In this document: piece after piece, positions 15,028-38,704 of the stretch
Layout of the letters: every line of letters begins with the position of its first letter
How positions within the stretch are numbered: position 1 is the first letter of the stretch
Assembly (NCBI GenBank): GCA_023664385.1
Contig: JAMPFU010000028.1
Coordinates: forward strand, 1 to 42,117
Source: Clostridium sp.
GTDB lineage: Bacteria > Bacillota > Clostridia > Lachnospirales > Lachnospiraceae
Direction: 5' to 3'
Length of the DNA stretch: 42,117 bases
Program-made: the position numbers and the translations under genes
The notes under the pieces: generated by a model
Database searches by the model: none
The model's input: only the letters and a program-made list of their open reading frames with translations
Told to the model about the DNA's origin: nothing

Positions 15028-15474
15028 ATGGACCGACTCACAAAAGAACAACGGCATAAAAATATGAAAAATATTAAAAATAAAGACACTGGTATTGAAA
15101 TAACTTTACGCAAAGAGTTATGGAATAAGGGTTATCGTTACAGAAAAAATGATAAAAGATTGCCGGGAACACCAGATATAGTTATGTCAAAATATAAGAT
15201 AGCAATTTTTTGTGATAGTGAATTTTTCCATGGCAAGGATTGGGAGGTCTTAAAACCCCAGCTTGAAAAAGGAAAAAATCCTGAATTTTGGATAAAGAAA
15301 ATTTCTAATAATAGAAAGAGAGACGATGAAGTAAATAAACAACTTTTATATCTTGGTTGGACAGTGATACGTTTTTGGGGTAAAGATATTATGAAACGAA
15401 CGAATGAGTGTATTAAAGTAATTGAAGAAACGATATTTGATACGATGCTAGATACGGAAGATTATTATGAGTAA
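15028..15474 (+). CDS. vsr: Vsr-family very-short-patch repair endonuclease
   Basis: A 148-residue Vsr-type endonuclease that nicks beside T:G mismatches created when 5-methylcytosine deaminates at the partner methyltransferase's site. The start resembles the family (RHKNMKNIKNKDTGIE). The metal-binding catalytic Asp50 is in RLPGTPDIV, and the tail shows FWIKKISNNRKRDDEV and LGWTVIRFW. The zinc-binding segment of E. coli Vsr is replaced by IFCDSEFFHGKDWE, a variant I associate with Vsr proteins of CCGG-type systems. GAGGT precedes the ATG. It overlaps or abuts the methyltransferase gene and is transcribed with it. Confidence 0.92.
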   Translation: MDRLTKEQRHKNMKNIKNKDTGIEITLRKELWNKGYRYRKNDKRLPGTPDIVMSKYKIAIFCDSEFFHGKDWEVLKPQLEKGKNPEFWIKKISNNRKRDDEVNKQLLYLGWTVIRFWGKDIMKRTNECIKVIEETIFDTMLDTEDYYE

Positions 15475-15487
15475 AGGAGAATTTGTA

Positions 15488-16492
15488 ATGTATAGGTCGA
15501 TAGATTTATTTTCAGGAATAGGAGGAATTAGAAAGGGCTTTGATTACGCTTTTGAGGACAACATAAAAACGGTATTTGTGAGTGAGTGGGATAAATATGC
15601 ACAGATGACGTACAAATTAAATTTTCATGATAATTTTGAAATTGCCGGGGATATCACAAAGGTTGACGAAAAAGACATTCCTGAATTTGATATATGCTTA
15701 GCAGGTTTTCCTTGCCAGGCATTTTCGCTGGCTGGAAAACATATGGGATTTGATGATGATTATAAAGGAATATGTCGTGGAACATTATTTCAGGATGTGG
15801 TGAGGATTTGTGAATATAGGAAACCCAAGGTTATTTTTTGTGAAAATGTAAAAGGATTAACCATTCATGATAAAGGACGTACGTTTAAGGTTATTAAAAA
15901 GGCGTTTGAGCAGATTGGGTATAATGTATATGATAAAGTCTTGAACAGTAAAGACTTTGGTGTGCCGCAAAATAGGGAAAGAATTTATATCGTTGCTTTT
16001 CGTAATGACATTGAAAGTAGTTTTTTTAAATTTCCGACAGGAAACAATGCAAATACTTGTATAAGGGATATTTTAGAGAAACAAGAAGTAAGTGTGAAAT
16101 ATTATTTGTCAACGGTGTATATAGATACGTTGAAAAAACATAAAGAAAGGCATCAGGCTAAAGGAAATGGTTTTGGATATGAGATAAGAGATTTAGATGG
16201 GTATGCAGGTGCAATCGTTTGTGGTGGAATGGGACGTGAACGAAATCTTGTTATTGATAAAAGACTTACCAATTTTGTACCGGTTACTCATATAAAGGGG
16301 GAAGTCAATCATGATGGAATACGAAAAATGACACCAAGAGAATGGGCTAGATTGCAAGGGTTTCCAGATGACTTTAAATTGGAATTGGCTGACACGCATT
16401 TATATAAGCAGTTTGGAAATAGTGTAACCGTAAATGTAATTGAGGCAATTGCAAAGGAGATAAAGGTGGTTTTGGATAAAAATGGGAATTAG
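15488..16492 (+). CDS. DNA (cytosine-5) methyltransferase, probable M.HpaII type
   Basis: A 334-residue C5 methyltransferase. Motif I is DLFSGIGGIRKGF, motif IV is GFPCQAFS with catalytic Cys76, motif VI is ENVKGL, and motif VIII is QNRERIYIVAF. A short target-recognition region follows, then motif IX (RKMTPREWARLQGFP) and motif X (QFGNSVTVNVIEAIA). The start at 15488 follows AAGGAGA at 15474-15480; the frame open from 15467 overlaps vsr and lacks a site. Together with the HpaII-like endonuclease downstream it should methylate CCGG at a cytosine. The inner-C specificity is inferred from the M.HpaII analogy. Confidence 0.93.
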   Translation: MYRSIDLFSGIGGIRKGFDYAFEDNIKTVFVSEWDKYAQMTYKLNFHDNFEIAGDITKVDEKDIPEFDICLAGFPCQAFSLAGKHMGFDDDYKGICRGTLFQDVVRICEYRKPKVIFCENVKGLTIHDKGRTFKVIKKAFEQIGYNVYDKVLNSKDFGVPQNRERIYIVAFRNDIESSFFKFPTGNNANTCIRDILEKQEVSVKYYLSTVYIDTLKKHKERHQAKGNGFGYEIRDLDGYAGAIVCGGMGRERNLVIDKRLTNFVPVTHIKGEVNHDGIRKMTPREWARLQGFPDDFKLELADTHLYKQFGNSVTVNVIEAIAKEIKVVLDKNGN

Positions 16493-16556
16493 AGAATTGA
16501 CAGATGAATGGGAGATAAAAAGTTATGAAGATAGGTAAATAGGAGGGCGAGCTTAA

Positions 16557-17642
16557 ATGAAAAAAAATACGGATAAAAAAATGTCGGGAAACAAGGGCGA
16601 GTGGTCAGAACTGTACGCATTTATGAAACTGCTTAGTCAGGGTCGGGTATATGCTGCTGACGAAAAAGTGGAGAAAATTAATAGTGTATATTATCCGATA
16701 TTGAAAATAATGAGAGAAGAGGAAAAAGGGCAACGATTGGATTACATAATTAATGATGATACGGTGATTGTTGAAATGCAATCAAAAGAAGTCATAACTG
16801 TTGACAGAGATACATTGGAAAAGCAAGCGGAAATTCTTTTGGGTCAGATTGTAAAACACAATGGCAGTTTTGAATTAGAGGATATAGCGAAATTTGCAAA
16901 TGAAATTAAAGTTACAAAGATTAAAGCACCTTCGGATGATACAACAGATATTTCTATGCAAATACAGGATATACATACAAATTATGTTTGTGATGTGGGT
17001 TTTTCCATTAAATCAGAAGTGGGAAATTCACCTACGTTATTAAATGCAGGAAAAACAACTAATTTTATATATAGAGTTGAGGGTATTACAAATAAACAGG
17101 CAGAAGAAATTAATAATATTAATTCCAAAAATAAAATTATGGATAGGATGGCAAAAATTAGAGAATATGGTGGAATAATGGAATTTATTGATGTCAACCA
17201 TGATGGGTTTAGGAGAAATCTTATTATGGTCGATAGCAATATGCCGAAAATAATTGCAAATATGTTATTGTATTTTTATGCTGAGGATGTTAAGGAATGC
17301 AAAACTTTAGTAAAATTGGCAGGTGATCGTGACCCATTGATGTATGGAGATGCAGTTATGTATGAATACAAATTCAAGAAATTTTTGTGTTCATGTGCGT
17401 TGGGAATGAAACCGGCAAAACCTTGGGATGGCTTGGACGAAGCAAATGGTGGCTATATAATTGTCAAGGCAGATGGTGAGATACTTGCATATCATATTTA
17501 CAATCGTAATTTCTTTGAACAGTATTTACTTGATAATACAATTTTTGAAAGGGCATCAACTACGAGGCATGAGTATATGAGTTTATACGAGGAAAACGGA
17601 GAAATATATATTAAATTGAATTTGCAGGTGCGATTTAAATAG
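16557..17642 (+). CDS. HpaII-family type II restriction endonuclease
   Basis: A 361-residue protein resembling R.HpaII (CCGG). The N-terminus reads GNKGEWSELYAFMKLLSQGRVY, as expected for the family. Further recognisable segments are DIHTNYVCDVGFSIKSEVGN and TLLNAGKTTNFIYRV, the conserved core in which GFSIKS supplies likely catalytic residues. Length is close to HpaII. AGGAGGG at 16543-16549 serves the ATG at 16557; M9 is an alternative. It follows the methyltransferase by 64 bp in the same direction, completing a Vsr-methylase-endonuclease set. Gene composition is AT-rich compared with flanking genes, suggesting transfer. Confidence 0.88.
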   Translation: MKKNTDKKMSGNKGEWSELYAFMKLLSQGRVYAADEKVEKINSVYYPILKIMREEEKGQRLDYIINDDTVIVEMQSKEVITVDRDTLEKQAEILLGQIVKHNGSFELEDIAKFANEIKVTKIKAPSDDTTDISMQIQDIHTNYVCDVGFSIKSEVGNSPTLLNAGKTTNFIYRVEGITNKQAEEINNINSKNKIMDRMAKIREYGGIMEFIDVNHDGFRRNLIMVDSNMPKIIANMLLYFYAEDVKECKTLVKLAGDRDPLMYGDAVMYEYKFKKFLCSCALGMKPAKPWDGLDEANGGYIIVKADGEILAYHIYNRNFFEQYLLDNTIFERASTTRHEYMSLYEENGEIYIKLNLQVRFK

Positions 17643-21570: not shown

Positions 21571-21655
21571 CGTGTTAAAACGGAAGGAATATTTTAATAA
21601 AATATTTAATCTATTCTTGACTAAATAATAATGTTGTGCTACTGTTTATACAAAC

Positions 21656-21690
21656 AAAGGCGTTTTGCAGTTATGCAGAGCGCCTTTTTC
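21656..21690 (+). terminator. Terminator after the HAD gene
   Basis: A stem forms between AAAGGCG (21656-21662) and CGCCTTTTT (21681-21689), extended through T.G pairs to an inner TGCA/TGCA, and closes with T residues. It lies about 85 bp after the HAD stop and just before the ATP-grasp operon. Confidence 0.7.
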
Positions 21691-21734
21691 TTTTGTTTTT
21701 AAAAAGCATCTTGTTTTTGAAAGGAGGATTTGTC

Positions 21735-23054
21735 ATGGAAAATTTGGATTTGTATAGGCATACGGACACAGTAAATGAGCTGTTGGCAAGATACGGCGTT
21801 AAATTTGGTATTTATAAAAATAATGAATTTAAAGAGCAGCTTTTTCCCTTTGATACAATACCGAGGATAATTGAAAAGAAAGAATTTGAGCAGTTGGAGA
21901 AAGGACTAAAGCAAAGGGCAAAAGCTTTAAATTGTTTTATCAAGGATATTTATGGGGACAAAAAAATTATTCGGGACAAGGTTGTTCCAGAGGAATTTGT
22001 ATATGCAGGAAGCGGTTATCTTGTTCAGTGCGAGGGTGTAAGTCCGCCGAAGGAGGTATATAACCATATTTCGGGGATTGACTTGGTTCAGGGAAAGGAT
22101 AAGGAATGGTATATTCTTGAGGATAACCTAAGAGTGCCGTCGGGCGCATCATATCCCATGATTGCAAGAGAGCTTTGCCGAAGAAGCAGTCCGAAAACCT
22201 TTCAGGAAAATCACATTGAGGACAATCGCAATTATGCTAAATTGCTTAGAAAAACAATGGATTATGTGAATACAGGCGGTCACTCCGTTATTCTTACGCC
22301 GGGCAGATACAATGCCGCTTACTTTGAACATTCGTATCTTGCAGAAATGACAGGAGCACACCTTGTTACAGGCAGTGAGCTTGTCGTGGAAAATGAACAC
22401 TTGTATTTCATTGATTATGCAGGGCACAAGGAGAAAGTAGGCGTTGTTTATCGGCGTATATCCGATGACTATTTGGACCCGATGAATTTCCTTGAGGAGT
22501 CGGTAATTGGTATTCCGCATATCTATGACATATACCGCAAAGGAAATGTCGCACTTATGAATGCGCCTGGAAACGGAGTTGCAGATGATAAGGGTATTTA
22601 TTATTTTGTGCCTAAGATGATAACGTATTATTTGGGTGAGGAGCCAATTTTGAAAAATGCTCCGACCTATCTTCCGTATTATGAGGAGGATATGAAATAC
22701 GTTTTGGATAACTTTGACAACCTTGTACTTAAGGATGTTGCCGAGGCAGGCGGGTACGGAGTTGTTTTTGGAAGTAAGATGACGAAGCAGGAAAAGGAAG
22801 CTTTTGTTGAAATGCTGAAAGCGGAACCGAGACGGTTTATTGCACAGGAGGTAATTGATTTCCTTGATATTGATATTATGGACAAGGGTGAAATCGTACC
22901 GAGGAAAGCCGACCTTCGGGCATTCGTGCTTATGGCAGAGGAACCGATGGTTTGGAAAAGTGGTTTGACAAGATTTTCAAGGAATCCGGATTCATTTATT
23001 GTGAATTCATCACAGGGAGGAGGCTTTAAGGACACATGGGTATTATCTCAGTAG
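21735..23054 (+). CDS. Circularly permuted ATP-grasp amidoligase (COG2308-like)
   Basis: A 439-residue protein of the circularly permuted ATP-grasp family. Family signatures are present in order: the GSGYLVQCEGV segment, LEDNLRVPSGASYPMI, and VLKDVAEAGGYGVVFG (nucleotide-binding Lys/Gly region). Then come IAQEVIDF, PRKADLRAFVLM, and the C-terminal IVNSSQGGGFKDTWVLSQ. ATP-grasp enzymes activate a carboxylate as acyl-phosphate and ligate an amine; this family is predicted to build amide or peptide products, but the substrate is not established. GGAGG at 21723-21727 fixes the start at 21735. It is the first gene of a run with the alpha-E and transglutaminase-like genes, and overlaps the alpha-E gene by 19 bp. 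Confidence 0.9.
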   Translation: MENLDLYRHTDTVNELLARYGVKFGIYKNNEFKEQLFPFDTIPRIIEKKEFEQLEKGLKQRAKALNCFIKDIYGDKKIIRDKVVPEEFVYAGSGYLVQCEGVSPPKEVYNHISGIDLVQGKDKEWYILEDNLRVPSGASYPMIARELCRRSSPKTFQENHIEDNRNYAKLLRKTMDYVNTGGHSVILTPGRYNAAYFEHSYLAEMTGAHLVTGSELVVENEHLYFIDYAGHKEKVGVVYRRISDDYLDPMNFLEESVIGIPHIYDIYRKGNVALMNAPGNGVADDKGIYYFVPKMITYYLGEEPILKNAPTYLPYYEEDMKYVLDNFDNLVLKDVAEAGGYGVVFGSKMTKQEKEAFVEMLKAEPRRFIAQEVIDFLDIDIMDKGEIVPRKADLRAFVLMAEEPMVWKSGLTRFSRNPDSFIVNSSQGGGFKDTWVLSQ

Positions 23055-23698
23055 AACACATGGACAGATTATATTGGCTTGGAAGATATAGTGAAAGGGT
23101 ATATTCCACACTGAAATTTTTTTCAGAGCGATATGATACTATGATTGACATGGAAGAAAATGCATATGAGGAATATTGCAGAAGGCAGGAAATTCCCAAT
23201 ATTTATACCTCGTCAGAGGATTTTGTAAGCAGGTACTGCTTTGATAAGACGGATGTAAATTCAATATTTTCAAATCTTATGCGGGCATATGATAATGCAA
23301 TCGTGCTGAGGGAGGAAATAGGAAGTGAGACGCTTGCCTATATTCAGCTCGCCGTTTATGCCATGAATAAAGCTAAGGAATCAGATGCACCGCTTATCCC
23401 TCTTATGAGTGTTAAGGATGATATTGTTGCATTTTGGGGCATTGCAGACGATCAGATTGACAGTGAATATGTAAGAAATATTATCAAGGTTGGAAAGCGA
23501 ATTGAAAGAATTGATTTGTATGCAAGAATGCATTACAAGGCGTCAGAGCTTATTAGGGAGGTTCGGCGTCTGACAGGACGTATTGACCGGACCGGGTTAA
23601 GCTATAATCACGCAAACCTTATGAAGCTTAACTATTTTTGTGAGATGGATGAGCTTGATTACAAAGAAATAGTAAAAACAGTTGAGGCTTTGGTGTAG
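23036..23698 (+). CDS. Alpha-E domain protein (DUF403/COG2307-like)
   Basis: A 220-residue, nearly all-helical protein beginning GIISVEHMDRLYWLGRYSER. The WLGRYxER motif is the signature of the alpha-E domain. Further signatures are FDKTDVNSIFSNLMRAYDNA and ARMHYKASELIREVRRLTGR. In most genomes this domain is encoded next to, or fused with, the CP-ATP-grasp protein, and is thought to be its structural or substrate-holding partner. Here the two genes overlap by 19 bp, indicating coupled translation. Its activity is unknown. Confidence 0.9.
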   Translation: MGIISVEHMDRLYWLGRYSERVYSTLKFFSERYDTMIDMEENAYEEYCRRQEIPNIYTSSEDFVSRYCFDKTDVNSIFSNLMRAYDNAIVLREEIGSETLAYIQLAVYAMNKAKESDAPLIPLMSVKDDIVAFWGIADDQIDSEYVRNIIKVGKRIERIDLYARMHYKASELIREVRRLTGRIDRTGLSYNHANLMKLNYFCEMDELDYKEIVKTVEALV

Positions 23699-23728
23699 CA
23701 GTTTGTTTCTATAAAATGGAGGAGCGTT

Positions 23729-24514
23729 ATGAAAAACCTAAAATTTCATTACCGAATGAGGCTTTCTTTTGACGTGCCGATTAGGGAACACCGTTTTACG
23801 CTAAAATGTATACCCCTTGACAGTGACAGGCAGAAAATATATGACCTTGAGGTGGATATTTATCCAAATGAATTTATCAGTAAGGATTTTGACTCCTTTG
23901 GAAATTTCTGCTATTACGGCTATGCCAAAAACGAGCATAACAAATTTTACATTGATGTTATGGGGAAGGCAAGGACAGGGCTCGCTGATTGTGAGAAGGA
24001 GAGCCAAATACACAAAATAGGCTTCTATAAATATCAGACAGAGTACACAAAGCCCGGGCAGGAAATGAACATGTTTCATAATTCCGTATCATTTTCAGAG
24101 AACGCAGGAAGCTTAGATAAGGCACTTTTATTTATGGATAAGCTTTATAACAGCTTTTCTTATGTTCAGGGTGTGACGGGGATAGAAACAACTGCGGAGG
24201 AGGCATTAAGGCTTGGACAGGGAGTTTGTCAGGATTATGCCCATATTATGCTTGGACTTTGCAGGATGGAGCATATACCATGCCGTTATGTGGTTGGTAT
24301 GCTTATGGGTGAGGGATTATCCCATGCATGGGTAGACATATATGAAAATGGAAGGTGGATTGCCCTTGACCCTACAAATAATCTGATTGTAAAGGAAGAC
24401 CATATTAAAATTTCCAACGGAAGGGATTATAAGGACTGCAATATAAACCAAGGTGTTTTCTATGGAAATGCAAAACAGCTTCAGGATATATCCGTATTAG
24501 TTGAAGAATTGTAA
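23729..24514 (+). CDS. Transglutaminase-like cysteine peptidase (COG1305-like)
   Basis: A 261-residue protein with an N-terminal beta-rich domain (~1-120) of the type that precedes bacterial transglutaminase-like cores. The core shows the Cys-His-Asp triad: GQGVCQDYAHIMLGLCR, LSHAWVDIYENGRW and ALDPTNN. Such proteins usually cleave or transfer amide bonds. In CP-ATP-grasp/alpha-E neighbourhoods the transglutaminase-like gene is a regular third member, predicted to process or attach the amide product. There is no signal peptide, so it should act in the cytoplasm with its neighbours. GGAGG at 23719-23723 precedes the ATG. Confidence 0.9.
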   Translation: MKNLKFHYRMRLSFDVPIREHRFTLKCIPLDSDRQKIYDLEVDIYPNEFISKDFDSFGNFCYYGYAKNEHNKFYIDVMGKARTGLADCEKESQIHKIGFYKYQTEYTKPGQEMNMFHNSVSFSENAGSLDKALLFMDKLYNSFSYVQGVTGIETTAEEALRLGQGVCQDYAHIMLGLCRMEHIPCRYVVGMLMGEGLSHAWVDIYENGRWIALDPTNNLIVKEDHIKISNGRDYKDCNINQGVFYGNAKQLQDISVLVEEL

Positions 24515-24547
24515 GTATCAGAGTTGTGTAAAAAATGGGAGGAAAAT

Positions 24548-25504
24548 ATGATTGAGACAATTGCAAAGGCAGAATTACCAGTAGATGAGCTGCTTGAGAT
24601 AAAGAAAAACAGAATTGTTCCCCAAAATGGAATATCAAATGGAAAAAGAATATGTGTGGTGACAGGTATTCATGGAGATGAGCTGGAGGGACAATATGTC
24701 TGCTATGAGGTAAACAGGCGGATACGAGAAAATATTGAGTATTTAAAGGGAACTGTTGATATATATCCTGCACTTAATCCCTTTGGCATAGATTCCATAA
24801 CAAGAGGAATCCCTGCGTTTGATTTGGACATGAACAGACTGTTTCCGGGCAACAGTGACGGAGATATGAATGAGCATATTGCGGCACAAATTATTGAGGA
24901 TATGGTCGGAGCGGATGTCTGTGTTGATATACATGCAAGTAATATTTTTTTGACGGAGGTTCCCCAAATCAGAATAAACGAGCTTCATAAGGATTGGCTT
25001 GTTCCTATCGCAATGAATGCTAACGTGGATTTGATATGGGTACATGGTGCAAGTACGGTGCTCGAATCTACATTTGCCTATAGCTTAAACAGCAGAAAGA
25101 CCGCTACGCTTGTAGTTGAGGTTGGCGTGGGAATGCGCATAACGAAAGAATATGGTAATCAGATTACGGAGGGGATTTTTTCTCTCATGAAAAATTTGGG
25201 AATATGGGAGGGCCCTGTTGACGATATTAAGAAACCAGTGGTCGCCTCAGATGAAAATGGCGGGTGCGTATGCTATATGAATGCACCAGTTTCAGGAATT
25301 TACATTAAAGCGGTAAATCACGGTGAAATGGTGGAACAGGGAGCTCATATCGGTGATGTGGTAAATCCCCTTACAGGCGAGCTGCTTGCTAAAATTGATG
25401 CACCTGAAGCGGGATGGCTTTTTACGCAAAGAGAATACCCCATTTTAGAGGAGGGATCTCTTATGGGACGTATTCTAAAAAAGGATATACTGGAAAATCA
25501 ATAG
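24548..25504 (+). CDS. Succinylglutamate desuccinylase/aspartoacylase-type metallohydrolase, intact
   Basis: A 318-residue M14-type AstE/AspA protein. Zinc ligands are visible: His and Glu in TGIHGDELEG (~40-43) and His in VDIHAS (~127). Substrate-binding elements NPFGIDSITRG and DMNRLFPG are conserved, and the catalytic Glu is in VVEVGVGM (~190). A C-terminal beta-rich domain (ISGIYIKAV to MGRILKK) is typical of the YNLF-like AspA branch. The enzyme should hydrolyse an amide between an acyl group and an amino acid or related amine. GGGAGG at 24537-24542 sets the start at 24548. It follows the transglutaminase-like gene by 33 bp in what appears to be one operon. Confidence 0.88.
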   Translation: MIETIAKAELPVDELLEIKKNRIVPQNGISNGKRICVVTGIHGDELEGQYVCYEVNRRIRENIEYLKGTVDIYPALNPFGIDSITRGIPAFDLDMNRLFPGNSDGDMNEHIAAQIIEDMVGADVCVDIHASNIFLTEVPQIRINELHKDWLVPIAMNANVDLIWVHGASTVLESTFAYSLNSRKTATLVVEVGVGMRITKEYGNQITEGIFSLMKNLGIWEGPVDDIKKPVVASDENGGCVCYMNAPVSGIYIKAVNHGEMVEQGAHIGDVVNPLTGELLAKIDAPEAGWLFTQREYPILEEGSLMGRILKKDILENQ

Positions 25505-25525
25505 ACTTTTGCATGGAGGAGAAAA

Positions 25526-26458
25526 ATGAAAAAGGAAATTATATATGAGATAAAGGCACTATATAGAGATGATTTTCGTGTTACAGGATATTCCTTTGGG
25601 GAGGGAGAGAAAACCGTATGTATTGTCGGAAGCATGCGTGGAAATGAATTTCAGCAGATTTATGTATGCTCACAGCTTGTAAAACGGCTGGGGGAATTAG
25701 AGGAAAAAGGCAGGCTTGCTAAGGGGCATAGAATAATGGTAATTCCCTGCGCAAATCCATATTCGGTTAATATCAGAAAACGGTTTTGGAGCATAGACAA
25801 TACGGATATTAACCGTATGTTTCCGGGATATGATTTAGGGGAGACAACACAGCGGATTGCAGGAGGCATATTTGACGCAATAAAAGAATATCGGTTTGGA
25901 ATACAGTTTGCATCGTTTTACATGCCTGGAAATTTTGTGCCACAGATAAGAATGATGAAAACGGGAAATGAAAATGTTGAGCTTGCCTGTCAGTTTGGCT
26001 TACCTTATGTTGTGCTTCATCACCCAAGACCCTTTGATACAGCTACGCTGAATTATAACTGGCAGCTTTGGGGAACGGATGCATTTTCAATATATACATC
26101 AAGTACAAGTGACGTGGACAAGCAAAGTGCAAGACAGGCAGTGGCGGCAATCCTTAATTTTATGTCTAAACAGGGAATTATAAATTACAGGGGCTACGAG
26201 GGCTACATATCAAGGGTAATAGAAAGCACGGATATGGTTAATGTCAGGACGTCGGCAGCAGGCTTCTTTGAACGGCTTGTGGATGTGGAGGATAAGGTTG
26301 AAAAGGGACAGCCGATGGCATATGTAAACGACCCGTATCTAGGAGTAAAAAAGCTTGAGATTTGCGCACCGATAGACGGAACGGTTGCATTTGCACATAA
26401 TGAAACAATGGCTTACCAAAACACCGCAGTATTTAAGCTTATTCCTGAGGAGTATTGA
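25526..26458 (+). CDS. AspA/AstE paralogue with zinc and catalytic residues lost (pseudoenzyme)
   Basis: A 310-residue paralogue of the gene just upstream, clearly the same fold (CANPYSVNIRKRFW, DINRMFPGYDLGE, C-terminal GFFERLVDVEDKVEKGQ domain). The metal site is gone: the HxxE motif reads GSMRGNEF (His to Arg, Glu kept), and the second His position reads IQFASF (His to Phe). The catalytic Glu region reads AFSIYTSSTSDVDK in place of VVEVGVGM. It is full length and well expressed (GGAGG before ATG, 21 bp after the upstream stop), so it is unlikely to be simple decay. A regulatory or binding role beside the active paralogue is the natural inference; no catalytic function should be assigned. 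Confidence 0.85.
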   Translation: MKKEIIYEIKALYRDDFRVTGYSFGEGEKTVCIVGSMRGNEFQQIYVCSQLVKRLGELEEKGRLAKGHRIMVIPCANPYSVNIRKRFWSIDNTDINRMFPGYDLGETTQRIAGGIFDAIKEYRFGIQFASFYMPGNFVPQIRMMKTGNENVELACQFGLPYVVLHHPRPFDTATLNYNWQLWGTDAFSIYTSSTSDVDKQSARQAVAAILNFMSKQGIINYRGYEGYISRVIESTDMVNVRTSAAGFFERLVDVEDKVEKGQPMAYVNDPYLGVKKLEICAPIDGTVAFAHNETMAYQNTAVFKLIPEEY

Positions 26459-26536
26459 GGCAAAGAAAACTAATCCAGTTCTGAGTGGAATTTAATTTTG
26501 CAAATGAGAAAAAATTTAGAAATTTTAAAAAAGGGA

Positions 26537-26564
26537 TTGACATTTTAAAATTTAGGTGTATAAT
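26537..26564 (+). promoter_or_regulatory. Promoter of the glutamine synthetase gene
   Basis: TTGACA (26537-26542) and TATAAT (26559-26564) are 16 bp apart. Both hexamers are consensus. Transcription from about 26571 would meet the terminator hairpin at 26584 within 15 nt, leaving a 164-nt leader before the gene. Confidence 0.8.
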
Positions 26565-26583
26565 TTGAAAACGTAAAAGCAAA

Positions 26584-26620
26584 GGCGCTTTGGAGAATAA
26601 CTCTAAAGCGCTCTTTTTTT
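26584..26620 (+). terminator. Terminator hairpin inside the glnA leader
   Basis: An 11-bp stem, GCGCTTTGGAG (26585-26595) with CTCTAAAGCGC (26601-26611), has an AATAA loop and runs into seven T residues (614-620). It lies between the glutamine synthetase promoter and its coding region. It can terminate the upstream AspA operon and may also attenuate transcription from the promoter at 26537. Confidence 0.75.
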
Positions 26621-26654
26621 GTTTGAATAGTCTTAAGCTTCTGTTTTAGAGTTT

Positions 26655-26693
26655 TCGACTTACCTTGTAAATCGGAACATATTGTGAAGCAAA
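26655..26693 (+). repeat. Leader element shared with the gene at 37977, glnA copy
   Basis: A hairpin (CGACTTAC-CTT-GTAAATCG, 26656-26674) is followed by GGAACATATTGTGAAGCAAA at 26674-26693. The 20-nt string recurs exactly at 37919-37938, also about 40 nt before a GGAGG site. The stem is kept in the second copy through G.T pairs, which favours an RNA element over chance. Confidence 0.5.
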
Positions 26694-26734
26694 GCTTTAA
26701 ATGCGGCGATGTTCAAAGAAGGAGGAAAAAAGAT

Positions 26735-28834
26735 ATGGCAAATGAAATACCTGAATTATACGGAAGTCTTGTTTTTAATGATAAGGTAATGAGAACAAAG
26801 TTACCGAAGGATATGTACAAGGCGCTCAAGAAGACGATTGAAAATGGGACACACCTTGAGCTTGACGTTGCAAATTCAGTTGCAGTTGCAATGAAGGAGT
26901 GGGCTGTTGAAAACGGTGCTACCCATTACACCCATTGGTTTCAGCCGATGACGGGCTTTACTGCTGAAAAGCATGACAGCTTCATACAGCCTTCAGGTGA
27001 CGGAGAGGTTATCATGGAATTTTCGGGTAAGGAGCTTGTAAAGGGTGAGCCTGATGCATCAAGCTTCCCGTCAGGAGGACTTCGTGCAACCTTTGAGGCA
27101 AGAGGATATACTGCATGGGATCCGACCTCTCCTGCATTTATTAAGGACGGAACACTTTACATACCGACAGCCTTTTGTTCATATGGCGGTCAGGCACTTG
27201 ATAAGAAAACACCCCTTCTCCGTTCTATGGAAATGCTAAGCGAGAAGGCAGTCAAGATACTTCATCTTCTTGGAAATGATACGGTAACAGGCGTATCAAC
27301 AACAATAGGACCTGAACAGGAATATTTCCTTGTGGACAGAGAGCTTTACAATAAGAGAAAGGATCTTGTGTTCTGTGGAAGAACGCTTTTCGGAGCTCCG
27401 GCGCCAAAGGGGCAGGAGATGGAGGACCATTACTTTGGTTCTATCAAGCCTAGAATTGCAGCATATATGCATGACCTTGACAGAGAGCTTTGGAAGTACG
27501 GCATACCTGCCAAGACAAAGCACAATGAGGTTGCACCTGCACAGCATGAGATGGCACCGATATTTGAGACGGCAAACATTGCGGTTGACCACAACCAGCT
27601 TACCATGGATACAATGAAGAAGGTTGCCGAGAAGCATGGACTTGTATGTCTTTTACATGAGAAGCCGTTTGAGGGAATAAACGGAAGCGGCAAGCACAAT
27701 AACTGGTCCGTATCGACAAACGATGGTGTAAATCTTTTGAATCCGGGAAGAACACCTGCACAAAATATACAGTTTTTAGTATTCCTTATGGCAGTTATCA
27801 AGGCGGTTGACGATTATTCTGATTTGATGAGAATAGCAGCGTCGTCAGCGGGTAATGACCACAGGCTTGGAGGAAATGAAGCACCTCCTGCAATCATTTC
27901 AATATTCCTTGGAGATGAGCTTACGGCTGTTCTTCAGTCTATTGAAAATGACACATATTTTGGAAAGCAGGAAAAGGTACAGCTTGAGACGGGTGCAAAT
28001 GTACTTCCTCATTTCTTTAAGGATAACACTGACAGAAACCGTACATCACCGTTTGCATTTACCGGAAATAAATTTGAATTCCGTATGCTTGGCTCGTCGG
28101 CATCGGTTTCAAATCCTAACGTAATACTGAATACTGCTGTTGCCGAGGCACTTGAGCAGTTTTATCACGAGCTTGAGGGAACGAAGCCTGAGGATATGGA
28201 GCATGCAGTGCATGAGCTTATCAAGAGAGCCATCAGAAAGCATAAAAAGGTTATATTTAACGGCAACGGATATACGGATGAGTGGATTAAGGAGGCAGAG
28301 GCAAGAGGCTTATACAATCTGCCAACTACACCGGATTGTCTTCCTAAGTTTATTGAGGATAAAAATGTTGAGCTTTTCACAAAGCATGGCATCTTCACGA
28401 AGGAGGAAATTTTTGCAAGATATGAAATACTCCTTGAGAACTATGTTAAGACAATTGGAATTGAGGCACGTACAATGGCTGATATGCTTACAAAGGATTT
28501 CCTGCCTTCTATTTCAGCATATGCTGGAAAGGTAGCAGGCGATGCAGCAAGTGCAAAGGCATTTATGCCAAGCCTTTCAATGGAAACTGAGGAAGCACTT
28601 GTTAAAAAGCTTACGGATGCATATAAATTTATCACTGATAATGTGGCAGAGCTTAAAAAACTTACGGAGGAAACGCTTGCTATTGCTGAAATGCAGGAGG
28701 CTGCAAATGCATGTCGTGACAAGGTGCTTCCGAAGATGGATGCTCTTGCTGCCTGCGCAAATGAGATAGAAGCGCTTATTCCTGATGACATATTACCATA
28801 TCCGACATATGAAAAACTCTTGTTTGCGGTGTAG
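26735..28834 (+). CDS. glnN: Glutamine synthetase type III (GlnN)
   Basis: A 699-residue type III glutamine synthetase that joins ammonia to glutamate using ATP. The length and the N-terminal extension (SLVFNDKVMRTKLPKD) are those of GSIII, as found in Bacteroidetes and Clostridia. Active-site segments include GPEQEYFLVD (~192), HNEVAPAQHEMAP, and NGSGKHNNWS for metal and ATP binding, followed by SAGNDHRLGGNEAPP. The start at 26735 follows AAGGAGG; the longer frame from 26684 covers the leader. The gene is downstream of an amidoligase operon and upstream of purF and an ammonium channel, placing ammonia uptake and glutamine use together. Regulation is probably through the leader terminator. 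Confidence 0.95.
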   Translation: MANEIPELYGSLVFNDKVMRTKLPKDMYKALKKTIENGTHLELDVANSVAVAMKEWAVENGATHYTHWFQPMTGFTAEKHDSFIQPSGDGEVIMEFSGKELVKGEPDASSFPSGGLRATFEARGYTAWDPTSPAFIKDGTLYIPTAFCSYGGQALDKKTPLLRSMEMLSEKAVKILHLLGNDTVTGVSTTIGPEQEYFLVDRELYNKRKDLVFCGRTLFGAPAPKGQEMEDHYFGSIKPRIAAYMHDLDRELWKYGIPAKTKHNEVAPAQHEMAPIFETANIAVDHNQLTMDTMKKVAEKHGLVCLLHEKPFEGINGSGKHNNWSVSTNDGVNLLNPGRTPAQNIQFLVFLMAVIKAVDDYSDLMRIAASSAGNDHRLGGNEAPPAIISIFLGDELTAVLQSIENDTYFGKQEKVQLETGANVLPHFFKDNTDRNRTSPFAFTGNKFEFRMLGSSASVSNPNVILNTAVAEALEQFYHELEGTKPEDMEHAVHELIKRAIRKHKKVIFNGNGYTDEWIKEAEARGLYNLPTTPDCLPKFIEDKNVELFTKHGIFTKEEIFARYEILLENYVKTIGIEARTMADMLTKDFLPSISAYAGKVAGDAASAKAFMPSLSMETEEALVKKLTDAYKFITDNVAELKKLTEETLAIAEMQEAANACRDKVLPKMDALAACANEIEALIPDDILPYPTYEKLLFAV

Positions 28835-28870
28835 GCTGCGACAGTCTAAGGAGAAATCCGGGAGGAAGAT

Positions 28871-30253
28871 ATGGAACAGGAAATAAAAGAGGCATGTGGT
28901 GTTTTTGGAATTTATAATATTTCCGGCGGCGATGTTGCACAGCAGATATATTACGGACTGTCCTCGTTGCAGCATCGCGGGCAGGAATCCTGCGGGATTG
29001 CTGTTTCTGATACAAGCGGACCTATGGGAAACATGAACGTAGAGCGGGGTATGGGACTTGTAAGTGAAGTCTTTAAGGAAACTGTTTTAGCCTCGCTAAA
29101 GGGAAATATCGGCGTGGGTCATGTGAGATATTCAACAACGGGAGATACATCCATAAATAATGCTCAGCCTCTTGTACTGAATTACATCAAGGGAACATTG
29201 GCACTGGCACATAATGGTAATCTTGTAAATACGGAGGAGCTTAAATGTGAGCTTGCAAGAACAGGCGCAATATTTCAGACCACAACCGATTCGGAGCTTA
29301 TAGCCTACTTTATAGCAAGGGAACGGGTAAATACAAATTCCGTTGAGGAGGCTATCATAAAGGCGGCAGAAAAGATAAAGGGAGCTTATGGCCTTGTGAT
29401 CGCAAGTCCGAGAAAGCTTATCGGCGTCAGGGATCCTTTAGGGCTTAAGCCTCTTTGTATAGGAAAAAAGGACGATTCGTACATAATCGCTTCTGAGAGC
29501 TGTGCGCTTAGTGCCCTTGGAGCAACATTTATCAGGGATGTGCTTCCAGGTGAGGTTGTGACTGTAACAAGAGATGGTTTACACTCCTACAAAAACCTCT
29601 GTAATGGAAAATGCGCACATTGCATTTTTGAATATATCTATTTTGCAAGACTTGACAGCACCATAGACGGCATATCAGTCTATGATGCAAGACTGAAGGC
29701 AGGGGAGGCTCTTGCAAAGGCATATCCCATAGATGCAGATATTGTCGCAGGAGTTCCCGAATCGGGTGTTGCGGCTGCAATGGGGTATTCCAAGGCTGCG
29801 GGCATACCGTACAGTCAGGTGTTTTACAAAAACAGCTACGTGGGAAGAACCTTTATAAAGCCGACGCAGAAGGAAAGGGAATCAAGCGTAAGGCTAAAGC
29901 TAAGCGTGTTGGAGCCGTCCGTTAAGGATAAAAGCATTGTGCTTGTGGATGATTCCATTGTCAGGGGTACAACGATTGCAAACCTGATACATATGCTGAA
30001 AAAAGCAGGAGCAAAAAGCGTTCATGTGAGAATTTGCTCACCGCCGTTTCTTTATCCCTGCTACTTTGGGACGGACGTCCCATCAAACAAACAGCTGATT
30101 GCTTCCTCACATTCCGAGGAGGAAATAAGACAGCTTATTGGAGCTGATACACTTGGATATATGAAAATCGAGGACTTACAGACGATGGTAGGAGATTTGC
30201 CGATATGTCGTGCCTGCTTCGATAATGATTATCCGATGCGTATTCCGCAATAA
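28871..30253 (+). CDS. purF: Amidophosphoribosyltransferase
   Basis: A 460-residue enzyme catalysing the first committed step of purine synthesis: PRPP plus glutamine gives phosphoribosylamine. The N-terminal nucleophile is Cys9 (MEQEIKEACGVFG), so an eight-residue propeptide is removed, as in the Bacillus enzyme. The glutaminase domain includes GHVRYST and AHNGNL. The PRPP loop is VLVDDSIVRGTT (~357). Cysteines in CAHCIFEY, CSPPFLYPCYFG and CRACFDNDYP match the [4Fe-4S] ligands of the oxygen-sensitive class. It lies 37 bp after glnN, not in a pur operon, so glutamine supply and purine entry are co-transcribed. Confidence 0.93.
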   Translation: MEQEIKEACGVFGIYNISGGDVAQQIYYGLSSLQHRGQESCGIAVSDTSGPMGNMNVERGMGLVSEVFKETVLASLKGNIGVGHVRYSTTGDTSINNAQPLVLNYIKGTLALAHNGNLVNTEELKCELARTGAIFQTTTDSELIAYFIARERVNTNSVEEAIIKAAEKIKGAYGLVIASPRKLIGVRDPLGLKPLCIGKKDDSYIIASESCALSALGATFIRDVLPGEVVTVTRDGLHSYKNLCNGKCAHCIFEYIYFARLDSTIDGISVYDARLKAGEALAKAYPIDADIVAGVPESGVAAAMGYSKAAGIPYSQVFYKNSYVGRTFIKPTQKERESSVRLKLSVLEPSVKDKSIVLVDDSIVRGTTIANLIHMLKKAGAKSVHVRICSPPFLYPCYFGTDVPSNKQLIASSHSEEEIRQLIGADTLGYMKIEDLQTMVGDLPICRACFDNDYPMRIPQ

Positions 30254-30282
30254 TAATTACGAAAACCATATATAAAATAATT

Positions 30283-30338
30283 AAGCGATGCAATGGGGCA
30301 TTTACAAAAAAGTAAAGTAGACCATGTATCGCTTTTTA
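30283..30338 (+). terminator. Terminator after purF
   Basis: Arms AAGCGAT (30283-30289) and ATCGCTT (30328-30334) pair, with inner ATGG/CCAT pairing and a further TTTAC/GTAAA stem, ending in TTTTT. It closes the glnN-purF unit. Confidence 0.7.
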
Positions 30339-30377
30339 TATAGATTTTAGCATTGAAAGGATTTATGACAGGAAGGA

Positions 30378-30402
30378 TTACGATTTACATTAAAAATCGT
30401 AA
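30378..30402 (+). promoter_or_regulatory. Inverted repeat before the ammonium channel gene
   Basis: TTACGATTT (30378-30386) and AAATCGTAA (30394-30402) form a perfect 9-bp inverted repeat with a 7-nt spacer. It ends 8 nt before the ribosome-binding site AGGAGG. It could be an operator or an RNA hairpin limiting ribosome access. Confidence 0.5.
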
Positions 30403-30422
30403 CGTAAAAGGAGGAAAAAGCT

Positions 30423-32207
30423 ATGGCAGAAGAATTAATGCAGCTAGTATCTGACAATGTTTTTGGCGTCTGGTTTTTAATCGGAGCCGCACTTGTATTT
30501 TGGATGCAGGCAGGCTTTGCAATGGTGGAGACAGGCTTTACCAGAGCAAAGAATGCAGGTAACATTATCATGAAAAACCTTATGGATTTTTGTATAGGAA
30601 CGGTAATGTTTATCCTGATTGGTTTCAGTCTTCTTCTTGGAGAGGACATGATTGGTCTTATCGGAAAGCCGGGATTTGATATTTTTACGGCTTACGAAAG
30701 CTTTGACTGGTCAAACTTTGTGTTTAACTTAGTATTTTGTGCAACTACGGCAACAATCGTTTCCGGAGCAATGGCAGAAAGAACAAAATTTTTGTCCTAC
30801 TGTGTATACTCAGCAGTTATTTCAGGTCTTATTTATCCGATTGAAGCACACTGGGTATGGGGCGGTGGATGGCTTGCCGAGATGGGCTTCCATGATTTTG
30901 CAGGTTCAACCTGCATCCACATGGTAGGTGGCATCTGTGCCTTGATTGGCGCAAAAATACTTGGTCCCCGTATTGGTAAATTTTCAAAGAATAAAGAAGG
31001 AAAGATAACAAAGGTAAATGCATTTCCGGGACATAATCTTCCAATCGGAGCCCTCGGCGTATTTATCCTTTGGTTAGGCTGGTACGGTTTTAACGGTGCT
31101 GCTGCCACATCAGTAGCAGAGCTTGGCTCAATATTTGTTACAACCACAATTGCGCCTGCAATTGCAACGGTTGTATGTATGGTATTTACATGGATTAAAT
31201 ATGGCAAGCCTGATGTTTCAATGTGTCTTAACGCATCACTTGCAGGACTTGTGGCAATTACCGCCTCCTGTGACGTTACAGATGCCTTAGGCGCAACCAT
31301 TATCGGTGCGGTGGCAGGATTGCTTGTGGTGTTCGGTGTATGGCTCTTAGACCATAAGCTCCACATTGATGACCCAGTAGGCGCTGTTGCCGTTCATATG
31401 ATGAATGGTATTTGGGGCACGATTGCAGTTGGACTTTTTGCCACAGATACGGCGCCTGCTTATGCAAGAGGCTTTGGTGATGGAACAGTATTTGGTGCAA
31501 ATCAGATTGCAGGAAAGGGATTGTTTTACGGTGGAGGCTTTGAGCTTCTTGGAATACAGCTTGTAGGAATGGCGGCAATCATTGCATTTACGGCTGTTAC
31601 AATTACAATAACCTTTTATGCGATTAAGGCGATATTCGGTCTTCGTGTTACTGAGGAGGAGGAAATTGTAGGACTTGATTCAACAGAGCATGGACTTCCG
31701 TCAGCGTATTCAGGCTTCAGCCTTATGGATATTTCAAATATCATGGATGAAAATGAAAATACCGACCTTGGCGTGTCTGAGTACAGTGAGGCAACGGAGG
31801 CGCAGAAGGAGGCTGCCGTTAAGGTTAGCAAAGCTCCTGTAGCTTCTGCGTCAGGTATTTACAAGGTTGTTATTGTCGCCAAGCTTTCGAGATACGAGAA
31901 GCTTAGAAAGGCACTCAATGATTTAGGCGTAACGGGAATGACAATGACGCAGGTAATGGGCTGTGGTATTCAGAAGGGTGCAGGAGAGATGTACCGTGGA
32001 GTTGAGCTTGATGCAACACTTCTTCCAAAGGTTAAAATTGAAGTCGTTGTAAGCAAAATACCTGTAGATACGGTTATCGAGACTGCAAAGAAGACTCTTT
32101 ACACAGGACATATCGGCGACGGTAAGATATTCGTATACAACGTGGAGCAGGTTGTTAAGGTTCGTACCGGTGAGGAAGGCTTTGCAGCCTTGCAGGATGT
32201 AGAGTAA
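30423..32207 (+). CDS. amtB: Ammonium channel AmtB fused to a C-terminal PII domain
   Basis: A 594-residue fusion. Residues 1-~410 form an Amt channel with 11 predicted TM helices: AMVETGFTRAKNAG, EAHWVWGGGWLAEMG (first pore His region), FNGAAATSVAELG, and the second pore His in VHMMNGIWG. A ~65-residue acidic linker leads to a PII/GlnK domain (~478-594). Its parts are YKVVIVAKLSRYEKLRKAL, the T-loop with MYRGVEL (the uridylylatable-Tyr position), KIEVVVSKIPVD and TGHIGDGKIFVYNVE. In most bacteria GlnK is separate and plugs the channel when nitrogen is plentiful; here the plug is tethered. AGGAGG precedes the ATG. Confidence 0.92.
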   Translation: MAEELMQLVSDNVFGVWFLIGAALVFWMQAGFAMVETGFTRAKNAGNIIMKNLMDFCIGTVMFILIGFSLLLGEDMIGLIGKPGFDIFTAYESFDWSNFVFNLVFCATTATIVSGAMAERTKFLSYCVYSAVISGLIYPIEAHWVWGGGWLAEMGFHDFAGSTCIHMVGGICALIGAKILGPRIGKFSKNKEGKITKVNAFPGHNLPIGALGVFILWLGWYGFNGAAATSVAELGSIFVTTTIAPAIATVVCMVFTWIKYGKPDVSMCLNASLAGLVAITASCDVTDALGATIIGAVAGLLVVFGVWLLDHKLHIDDPVGAVAVHMMNGIWGTIAVGLFATDTAPAYARGFGDGTVFGANQIAGKGLFYGGGFELLGIQLVGMAAIIAFTAVTITITFYAIKAIFGLRVTEEEEIVGLDSTEHGLPSAYSGFSLMDISNIMDENENTDLGVSEYSEATEAQKEAAVKVSKAPVASASGIYKVVIVAKLSRYEKLRKALNDLGVTGMTMTQVMGCGIQKGAGEMYRGVELDATLLPKVKIEVVVSKIPVDTVIETAKKTLYTGHIGDGKIFVYNVEQVVKVRTGEEGFAALQDVE

Positions 32208-33721: not shown

Positions 33722-34561
33722 TTATGCATCGTCATCCTGCAAATTGAAAATTTCATTTTCATATTTTCTGATGCGTTTTATTTCTTCACGTACTTCGGTT
33801 AAAGCAAAACCCAAAAGATTTGAACCATTCCATTTTTCAGGATGATACACATTCTCGTTGTTAGCATCCATGCCTATTCCCCATATCATGTCAAGGGGGC
33901 TTGCCTCAACAAGGATAGTATCGCCCGTTGATAAAAGAACTTGTCTGAGTTGTTTGTTTTGCGAGAATTTATAATAATTTCCCGTAAGAACAATGTGATA
34001 TTTTACGTCATTCCATATATTCTCATCAAAGTTTCTTACTTTTCGTCCGAGCCCCTTTATCTTATCCTGCATTGTTTCATCCATGATTTGCTTCGCAATT
34101 TCTTCATCTCCGAAAATGCGTGCCTTTTCCGCCATCATATACTGCTCCATACAACAATATCGAAAATGGTCTACCTGAAAATCAGCCTTATACCATTGGC
34201 TGAAGCATTCTTTTCCGATGTCTCTGCCCTTATTCCGATGTCCCCAAAAACAGATGATAGGTCTTTCTAACCCCGTTTTCTTTTCTTTGATAAGCGTATC
34301 AACACTGTAGCCCCGTATATGCTTCCATTTTCTTATGTGATGGTTGTTATAGGTACAAGTTTCATACATCATTGTATTCCACAAAAGTGGCTTAGGGAAT
34401 TTTTCTTCAAATTCTTTCCTTTTTTCTTTTGAAAGCGCATAAAACCAATCATAAAATTCTTCTGCATATGCCTCGCCATACCCCATGCGCCAGCCTATGC
34501 TGGCTTCAGATATTTCGGGATGCTTAATCCATAAAGGTGCCATATATTTTTTATCTATCAT
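33722..34561 (-). CDS. NADAR-domain protein (YbiA-like N-glycosidase fold)
   Basis: A 279-residue protein. The first ~110 residues are an unassigned N-terminal region (MIDKKYMAPLWIKHPEISEA). The remainder is a NADAR domain: CFSQWYKADFQVDHFRYCCMEQYMMAEKA with the conserved Glu, then GLGRKVRNFDENIW, KFSQNKQLRQVLLSTGD, LVEASPLDMIWGIGMD and NGSNLLGFALTEVREEI. NADAR proteins cleave N-glycosidic bonds of riboflavin intermediates or ADP-ribose adducts, and several occur in phage-defence or toxin loci. GGAGG (34572-34568) and a TTGTTT-N17-TATAAT promoter support the start. It may be co-transcribed with the three small genes downstream. Confidence 0.85.
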   Translation of the reverse strand: MIDKKYMAPLWIKHPEISEASIGWRMGYGEAYAEEFYDWFYALSKEKRKEFEEKFPKPLLWNTMMYETCTYNNHHIRKWKHIRGYSVDTLIKEKKTGLERPIICFWGHRNKGRDIGKECFSQWYKADFQVDHFRYCCMEQYMMAEKARIFGDEEIAKQIMDETMQDKIKGLGRKVRNFDENIWNDVKYHIVLTGNYYKFSQNKQLRQVLLSTGDTILVEASPLDMIWGIGMDANNENVYHPEKWNGSNLLGFALTEVREEIKRIRKYENEIFNLQDDDA

Positions 34562-38629: not shown

Positions 38630-38704
38630 AAAACTGTAACGAGTTACAGTTTTGGTCTGGGCGAAAGCTCTTTGGACCACCGTAGGCGGGAAGAATTTCC
38701 CGCC
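38630..38704 (+). ncRNA. Three-hairpin structured RNA upstream of DUF3800 gene (DUF3800-motif-like)
   Basis: Three hairpins stand side by side. The first is AAAACTGTAA with TTACAGTTTT (38630-38653, CGAG loop). The second joins TGGTC and GACCA around a GGGC-GAAA-GCTC inner stem (38653-38679). The third is GGCGGGAA-GAAT-TTCCCGCC (38685-38704). The gene's AGGAAA site follows 20 nt later. Several families of structured RNA named DUF3800 motifs are known directly upstream of DUF3800 genes; which motif number this is I cannot say. The third hairpin lacks a T run, so it is not an ordinary terminator. Confidence 0.7.

Follow-up and report, generated by a model that had tools for sequence, protein, structure and literature searches.

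A five-gene amidoligase cassette in a Lachnospiraceae genome very probably belongs to the nitrogen regulon and, judged from its sequence, is tied to nitrogen by regulation: it carries the same leader RNA as the adjacent operon of a type III glutamine synthetase (GSIII). The window analyzed is a stretch of 42,117 nucleotides, positions 1-42,117 of the forward strand of contig JAMPFU010000028.1, from the 3.17-Mb genome of Clostridium sp. (Lachnospiraceae; GCA_023664385.1), and the locus under study lies at 21735..32207. There, genes for a circularly permuted (CP) ATP-grasp ligase (ATPg), an alpha-E protein, a transglutaminase-like thiol enzyme (TGL) and two proteins of the AspA/AstE fold (Asp1 and Asp2) are followed by genes for GSIII, PurF and an ammonium transporter fused to P-II (Amt-PII), all on the plus strand. 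Genes were called with Pfam and NCBIfam profiles, which confirmed the earlier gene coordinates and supported each gene, direction and enzyme class given in a first-pass annotation of this DNA.

The cassette leader, an attenuator on the plus strand at 21647..21693, consists of a hexaloop hairpin (loop AAAGGC, stem AAAC/GTTT) that overlaps a terminator-like structure at 21656-21687 (fold z -5.9), and it is kept across genera. The same element precedes GSIII (26572..26622, plus strand), where the terminator-like hairpin occupies 26584-26612. We compared the two with covariance models: for R1 we took 12 leaders of cassettes in relatives, with the window sequence excluded, and for R2 24 GSIII leaders of other genomes. 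The top two R1 matches in the whole genome were the cassette leader (49.5 bits, E 1.6e-9) and the GSIII leader (33.2 bits, E 6.3e-5), followed by the reverse strand of the cassette leader and by weak sites not before obvious nitrogen genes. Reciprocally, R2 recovered the GSIII leader (44.1 bits, E 4.8e-6) and the cassette leader (40.7 bits, E 2.9e-5) as its only two sites under E 0.01, the one further match being the reverse strand of the GSIII-leader site.

The leader recurs with the cassette in relatives. We drew on the best 80 of at least 555 confirmed matches (named loci) and on a family sample of 150 genomes whose loci overlap with them (L161 with L027, L111 with L026). Most of the named loci come from Lachnospiraceae, Butyrivibrio fibrisolvens 16/4 among them, and in 32 the cassette is flanked by about 10 kb at either end. 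R1 matches on the sense strand precede ATPg by no more than 400 nt in 62 of the 80 named loci and by 0.6-5.9 kb in 10 more, and all 35 R2 matches at E<=0.01 in the window and the named loci are on the sense strand. GSIII is likewise preceded at close range by a sense-strand R1 match in 26 of the 30 loci that hold it, counting the window (E<=2e-4). In Butyrivibrio and relatives the module stands behind an importer block of GlnQ, substrate-binding protein (SBP) and permease that itself bears the leader; in L142, L144, L149 and L159 the leader is directly before the block that precedes ATPg, and L028 and L030 share the arrangement, the L028 SBP having 2v25 as its closest match in the PDB. Two of the far-upstream leaders may have nothing to do with the cassette: that of L160 and that of L102, which stands 5.9 kb from ATPg and 1.6 kb ahead of the GlnQ block. 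A tandem pair of leaders was observed before ATPg in L100, L134, L137, L146, L161, L163 and L164.

R1 found matches in 128 of the 150 family genomes (a search with stricter filters and 41 candidates scored per genome; G134 and G146, among the 22 leader-less genomes, were assigned by a gap in the list). From the listed matches we hand-picked 40 leaders that belonged to neither cassette nor GSIII, and read 39 strong ones after dropping L245 as too short; one, L252, turned out to precede GSIII. A nitrogen gene was among the first three downstream open reading frames (ORFs) in 28 of the 39: amt/glnK or Amt-PII in ten, amino-acid ABC operons in five, asnB in three, carA, glnA and gltB-type genes in two each, and asnA, gdhA, pyrG and GSIII in one each. 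Because several of these genes encode glutamine-dependent amidotransferases, the presence of PurF in the window's GSIII operon would be explained as well. Ammonia-assimilation genes are normally raised under nitrogen shortage, and the shared leader suggests that the cassette is switched together with ammonia assimilation. In two genera (L236, L240) the leader precedes an 856-aa protein, in which a PPDK_N domain was found in L236.

Seen in order in 72 of the 80 named loci, the five genes keep together far above chance, and the first-pass annotation was right to continue the ligase, alpha-E and transglutaminase-like trio with two AspA/AstE genes. Five named loci are incomplete because the contig ends (L089, L094, L111, L113, L117). 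In L122 (9884-17132), an insertion of about 5 kb parts ATPg from alpha-E; each half has its own leader in front, and no Asp2 was seen after Asp1. In the family sample the ATP-grasp gene, counted at E<=1e-20, occurs in 21 of 150 genomes. Among these 21 loci (window plus 20), 14 hold the full five genes in order, including L037, which has a stop in its TGL match; L042 has all five with the ATP-grasp gene internally deleted, L026 and L038 run off the contig, and L040, L041, L043 and L044 are scars with the cassette only in parts. All four scars lack the middle of the cassette. Each retains the 5' end of the ATPg gene, in three of them together with the leader, and a 3' piece survives in three. 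Across a phylum sample of 398 genomes (E<=1e-25), the ATP-grasp family was found in 9 and Asp2 in 6; in all six Asp2 genomes an ATP-grasp gene lies no more than about 4 kb away, and the other three ATP-grasp genomes are without Asp2.

GSIII is present in 148 of the 150 family genomes, and it adjoins the cassette only in the window among the 21 cassette genomes (among the matches listed, some contigs being too short); in L027 it lies about 7.5 kb downstream. Among the 80 named loci it is within reach only in L137, in the order cassette-Amt-PII-AsnB-GSIII, and an Amt-PII match is near the cassette in L096, L134, L137 and L160. With cassette-GSIII neighbors so rare in both samples, a position next to GSIII is not what has been conserved. 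The linkage with glnN, whose absence from related genomes the first-pass annotation had named as grounds for refuting its reading, is lacking as a rule, and its tie between cassette and nitrogen survives through the leader RNA and not through gene neighborhood.

Its extension of the unit into GSIII probably does not hold for the transcript, as the cassette and GSIII-PurF-Amt-PII are probably not one operon: a sigma-70-like promoter site (TTGACA-16-TATAAT, 26537..26564, plus strand, 12/12 matches) and the leader terminator lie between Asp2 and GSIII. The cassette has a candidate promoter of its own, read by eye, at 21617..21645 on the plus strand (TTGACT-17-TACTGT, with a weak -10). Behind the GSIII leader come GSIII (26735..28834, ATG start at 26735, Pfam), the amidophosphoribosyltransferase PurF (28871..30253; 506 bits against a cut-off of 350) and Amt-PII (30423..32207, with ammonium transporter and P-II domains). 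The genome has a second GSIII (L184:5397-7649), 76-77% identical and without a leader.

We then considered which regulator might act on the leader. The genome encodes one ANTAR protein, directly behind glnA (L045; domain confirmed), and glnA followed by an ANTAR gene is also found in L218. This order is familiar from the glnA-ANTAR locus of Clostridium saccharobutylicum with its GlnR-type antiterminator, whereas control here would reach an amidoligase cassette and no leader was found before the genome's own glnA. Leader and ANTAR co-occur in the family sample: at E<=1e-3 the leader is present in 121 of 131 ANTAR-positive versus 7 of 19 ANTAR-negative genomes (Fisher p 1.2e-7, in a test that ignores phylogeny), and at E<=1e-4 in 105 of 131 versus 3 of 19. 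G114 is both the sole cassette-positive genome without ANTAR and the sole one of 21 without any leader. In 110 leaders selected with R1, which favors the motif, the hexaloop has A at position 2 in 110, G at position 4 in 109 and A at position 1 in 97, position 3 being free. Its flanks pair over 3.23 bp versus 2.55 in shuffles, with a maximum of 2.95 in 2000 (64 distinct flank pairs, uncorrected for relatedness, the 18 of 110 leaders without the exact motif left out). A predicted promoter with at least 9 of 12 matches precedes 49 of 70 cassette leaders, versus 17% in shuffles, and 20 of 22 GSIII leaders; the C of the motif follows the predicted -10 box at a median of 11-13 nt. The leader thus resembles target RNAs of the EutV, NasR and AmiR type in its hexaloop with G4 and mostly A1, in the overlapping intrinsic terminator, in standing before nitrogen genes and in the ANTAR protein of its genome. 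It differs in that its one hexaloop stands right at the 5' end, with no second hairpin (P1) upstream. According to two reports, ANTAR RNAs have two hairpins and EutV antitermination needs two hexaloops (PMC3369931, PMC8934654). The 2022 EutV-RNA structure gives one hexaloop as the minimal target, with G4 as the key contact, two being kept for antitermination (PMC8934654).

Several observations weigh against a five-gene module under an ANTAR-controlled nitrogen leader. P1 is no commoner in the leaders (9 of 89) than in shuffles (9.8 expected); R1 matches persist in 7 of the 19 ANTAR-less genomes, in 3 of them at E<=1e-4, and are lacking from 10 ANTAR-positive ones. No nitrogen gene follows 11 of the 39 leaders read. 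No leader was found at E<=0.01 in 8 of the 80 named loci, four of which (L098, L106, L136, L139) gave weak upstream matches in a smaller search extended to E 0.5, and none was found upstream of ATPg at E<=0.5 in L177, L178, L179 or the Asp2-less L180-L182. The window's own genome yields only two sites, with none before glnA or the second GSIII (150 of 1147 candidates scored). Finally, the trio stands without Asp1 and Asp2 in L092 (632-3386) and L158 (2327-5096), where no match to either was found past TGL in about 8.5 kb and 1.7 kb of further sequence, respectively. Given the co-occurrence and the loop match, the ANTAR protein is a probable regulator of the leader; the single hexaloop and missing P1 keep this assignment short of proven.

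The cassette genes themselves all lie on the plus strand. ATPg (21735..23054, ATG start at 21735) matches CP_ATPgrasp_2 (1.4e-137) and has 3n6x as its only PDB sequence match at E<=0.01. Alpha-E (23036..23698; Alpha-E, 2.2e-19) is a short form, its match covering only profile positions 7-165 of 294, and its AlphaFold model (pLDDT 92.8) gave no convincing match among PDB folds. TGL (23729..24514) has Transglut_core and Bact_transglu_N domains with the Cys, His and Asp motifs present; C167, H199 and D214 are invariant in 14 sequences, from which L037, with its stop, was left out though it counts among the 14 full family cassettes, and the PDB match is 3isr. Asp1 (24548..25504; AstE_AspA_cat), whose start is most likely the ATG at 24548 rather than an earlier TTG, keeps its zinc ligands (HxxE...H) and catalytic Glu in 77/78, 78/78, 78/78 and 78/78 sequences of the window and relatives; its PDB sequence matches are 2qj8, 3cdx and DoeB (6twm/6twl).

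Asp2 (25526..26458; AstE_AspA_cat) is a pseudoenzyme, as the first-pass annotation had proposed, with the zinc histidines and the catalytic Glu lost and DxNR kept. In the 75 sequences of the window and relatives, the first zinc His is Arg in 73, the third is lost in 73, the catalytic Glu is Tyr in 73 and Met in 2, and the DxNR motif is present in all. The Asp2 proteins of the distant Bacillota L178 and L179 retain HxxE and H but carry Met at the catalytic Glu, so that Asp2 may have decayed stepwise. Its model (pLDDT 90.8) has the AspA/AstE fold, and the nearest structures include 3cdx, a succinylglutamate desuccinylase/aspartoacylase, the cyanophycin dipeptide hydrolase CphZ (8eip) and DoeB (6twm). 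On another contig the genome also holds an orphan Asp1'-Asp2' pair (L183:9846-11715, C31), 43-46% identical to the cassette pair; in this Asp1' a zinc His is Tyr and the DxNR Arg is Val, and the pair adjoins an ORF named by eye as CheY-like.

ATP-grasp enzymes form amide bonds via an acyl phosphate, TGL folds are thiol hydrolases or transferases, and AspA/AstE enzymes are zinc amidohydrolases; by these family activities, the cassette is a matched set that would make and break a bond. An amidoligase system reportedly described, with the Anbu operon, by Iyer and colleagues in 2009 is defined by clustered CP_ATPgrasp, Alpha-E and transglutaminase-like genes. The cassette has these three core genes together, as in that system, and differs in lacking Anbu, in the active-inactive AspA/AstE pair found instead, in the shortened alpha-E and in an RNA attenuator in place of NtrC. 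Control by nitrogen limitation is a further likeness, as reports on Proteobacteria indicate (PMC5491218, PMC7801951). In Burkholderia cenocepacia, I35_5080-83 (DUF404/407, DUF403 and two TGL genes) is given there as NtrC/sigma54-dependent, with table values of -6.0 to -9.4 for the ntrC mutant (PMC5491218), and in Pseudomonas putida PP_2685-2688, which partly by our own reading are Anbu, TGL, alpha-E and ATP-grasp, are nitrogen-induced (PMC7801951). Marine metagenome correlations link the same domains to urea metabolism (PMC3597751), and an Anbu-operon ATP-grasp homologue of Yersinia bercovieri releases phosphate from ATP (PMC6376114). Asp1 shares fold family, zinc and catalytic residues with AspA, AstE, CphZ and the N-acetyl-diaminobutyrate deacetylase DoeB/EutE. 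It reaches only 54.4 bits against a curated DoeB cut-off of 402.7 and, unlike these enzymes, has a pseudoenzyme encoded behind it in 72 of 80 loci.

We lean, by a modest degree, toward a salvage role for the five genes: under nitrogen limitation, this module would make and break an isopeptide or acyl-amino-acid bond. The grounds are the make-and-break enzymes, the leader and the nitrogen-limitation reports elsewhere. Sharing its RNA switch with ammonia-assimilation genes, the cassette would probably serve nitrogen salvage under scarcity; that its net role is salvage of an isopeptide or acyl-amino acid is a more tentative proposal. When nitrogen is short, the ANTAR protein (L045) would stabilize the 5'-terminal hexaloop hairpin, the overlapping terminator would not form, and the cassette would be transcribed together with GSIII-PurF-Amt. 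As its family suggests, the CP-ATP-grasp enzyme would activate a carboxylate with ATP and join an amine to it, with alpha-E as partner; TGL would cut or transfer the resulting amide, and Asp1, with its zinc, would hydrolyze the small product, an N-acyl or isopeptide compound. Asp2, itself non-catalytic, may serve Asp1 as partner or sensor by binding the ligand they share. The net effect would be to feed amino nitrogen from an isopeptide or acyl-amino-acid pool into glutamate and glutamine synthesis. The substrate is not deducible from the sequence, as the first-pass annotation had said, and what we suggest of it and of the direction of the ligase step is inferred.

The main rival, which we consider unlikely, is protein tagging and turnover, in which ATPg would tag proteins, TGL and Asp1 would remove the tag, and tagged proteins would be degraded in nitrogen starvation so that their amino acids are recycled. 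Nitrogen regulation fits this too, and tagging has been proposed for the Anbu operon with the same trio (PMC6376114, PMC5666114); yet no proteasome-family protein was found in the window's genome (E<=0.001) or in the cassette (Pfam), and Asp1 relatives such as DoeB act on small molecules. Somewhat more doubtful is a cyanophycin-like nitrogen store, with ATPg building a side-chain amide polymer or dipeptide and Asp1 acting as a CphZ-like isoaspartyl dipeptidase. The AspA/AstE fold does include the cyanophycin dipeptide hydrolase (Asp2 model versus 8eip/8ein), and one report counts AstE-annotated enzymes as beta-Asp-Arg/Lys dipeptidases, those of Firmicutes being undiscovered (PMC10206079). However, the genome has no cyanophycin synthetase (17 sub-threshold matches, the best at 156 bits against a cut-off of 850), the Asp1 sequence is nearer DoeB/2qj8 than CphZ, and storage built during nitrogen shortage would run in the wrong direction.

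The first-pass annotation had suggested that an acyl-glutamate or glutamine-derived peptide is synthesized under nitrogen plenty and recycled under scarcity, and the enzyme classes would permit making and breaking such a bond. Ligase and hydrolases stand under one leader common to ammonia-assimilation genes, however, so that they are probably induced together in nitrogen shortage. Since the element marks genes raised in nitrogen shortage and the proteobacterial trio is NtrC-dependent (PMC5491218, PMC7801951), high-nitrogen synthesis is very improbable, and its direction should probably be inverted. That the genes are chance neighbors, with a cassette unrelated to nitrogen, would agree with the unconserved GSIII adjacency but is strongly disfavored by the reciprocal recovery of the two leaders by R1 and R2 in 3.17 Mb and by a leader upstream in 72 of 80 loci.

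Elsewhere in the window we observed the 3' end of a large subunit (LSU) rRNA (1-84), consecutive genes for Vsr, a C5-cytosine methylase and an HpaII-type restriction endonuclease (15028-17642), a NADAR-domain protein on the minus strand (33722-34561) and a DUF3800-XI RNA motif (38653-38700).

While the amidoligase trio is known, the active-inactive AspA/AstE partner pair is a new kind and the leader is unusual. The trio is widespread, and the literature cited here gives it no proven substrate or pathway; in Bacillota, the RNA that it shares with ammonia assimilation in Lachnospiraceae of gut and rumen ties it to a clear physiological condition. The single-hexaloop leader also offers a test of the recent proposal that one hexaloop suffices as a minimal ANTAR target (PMC8934654). 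Speculatively, the trio might be a general bacterial nitrogen-starvation pathway with unrelated regulators in different phyla, NtrC/sigma54 in Proteobacteria and a minimal one-hexaloop ANTAR attenuator at the 5' end of the transcript in Lachnospiraceae. Its end step in Bacillota would fall to Asp1, a zinc isopeptidase paired with a pseudoenzyme of its own, Asp2, in a salvage route not yet described. The leader found in Lachnospiraceae matches independent reports from Proteobacteria, and it points to the cells, the growth condition and the metabolites to examine.

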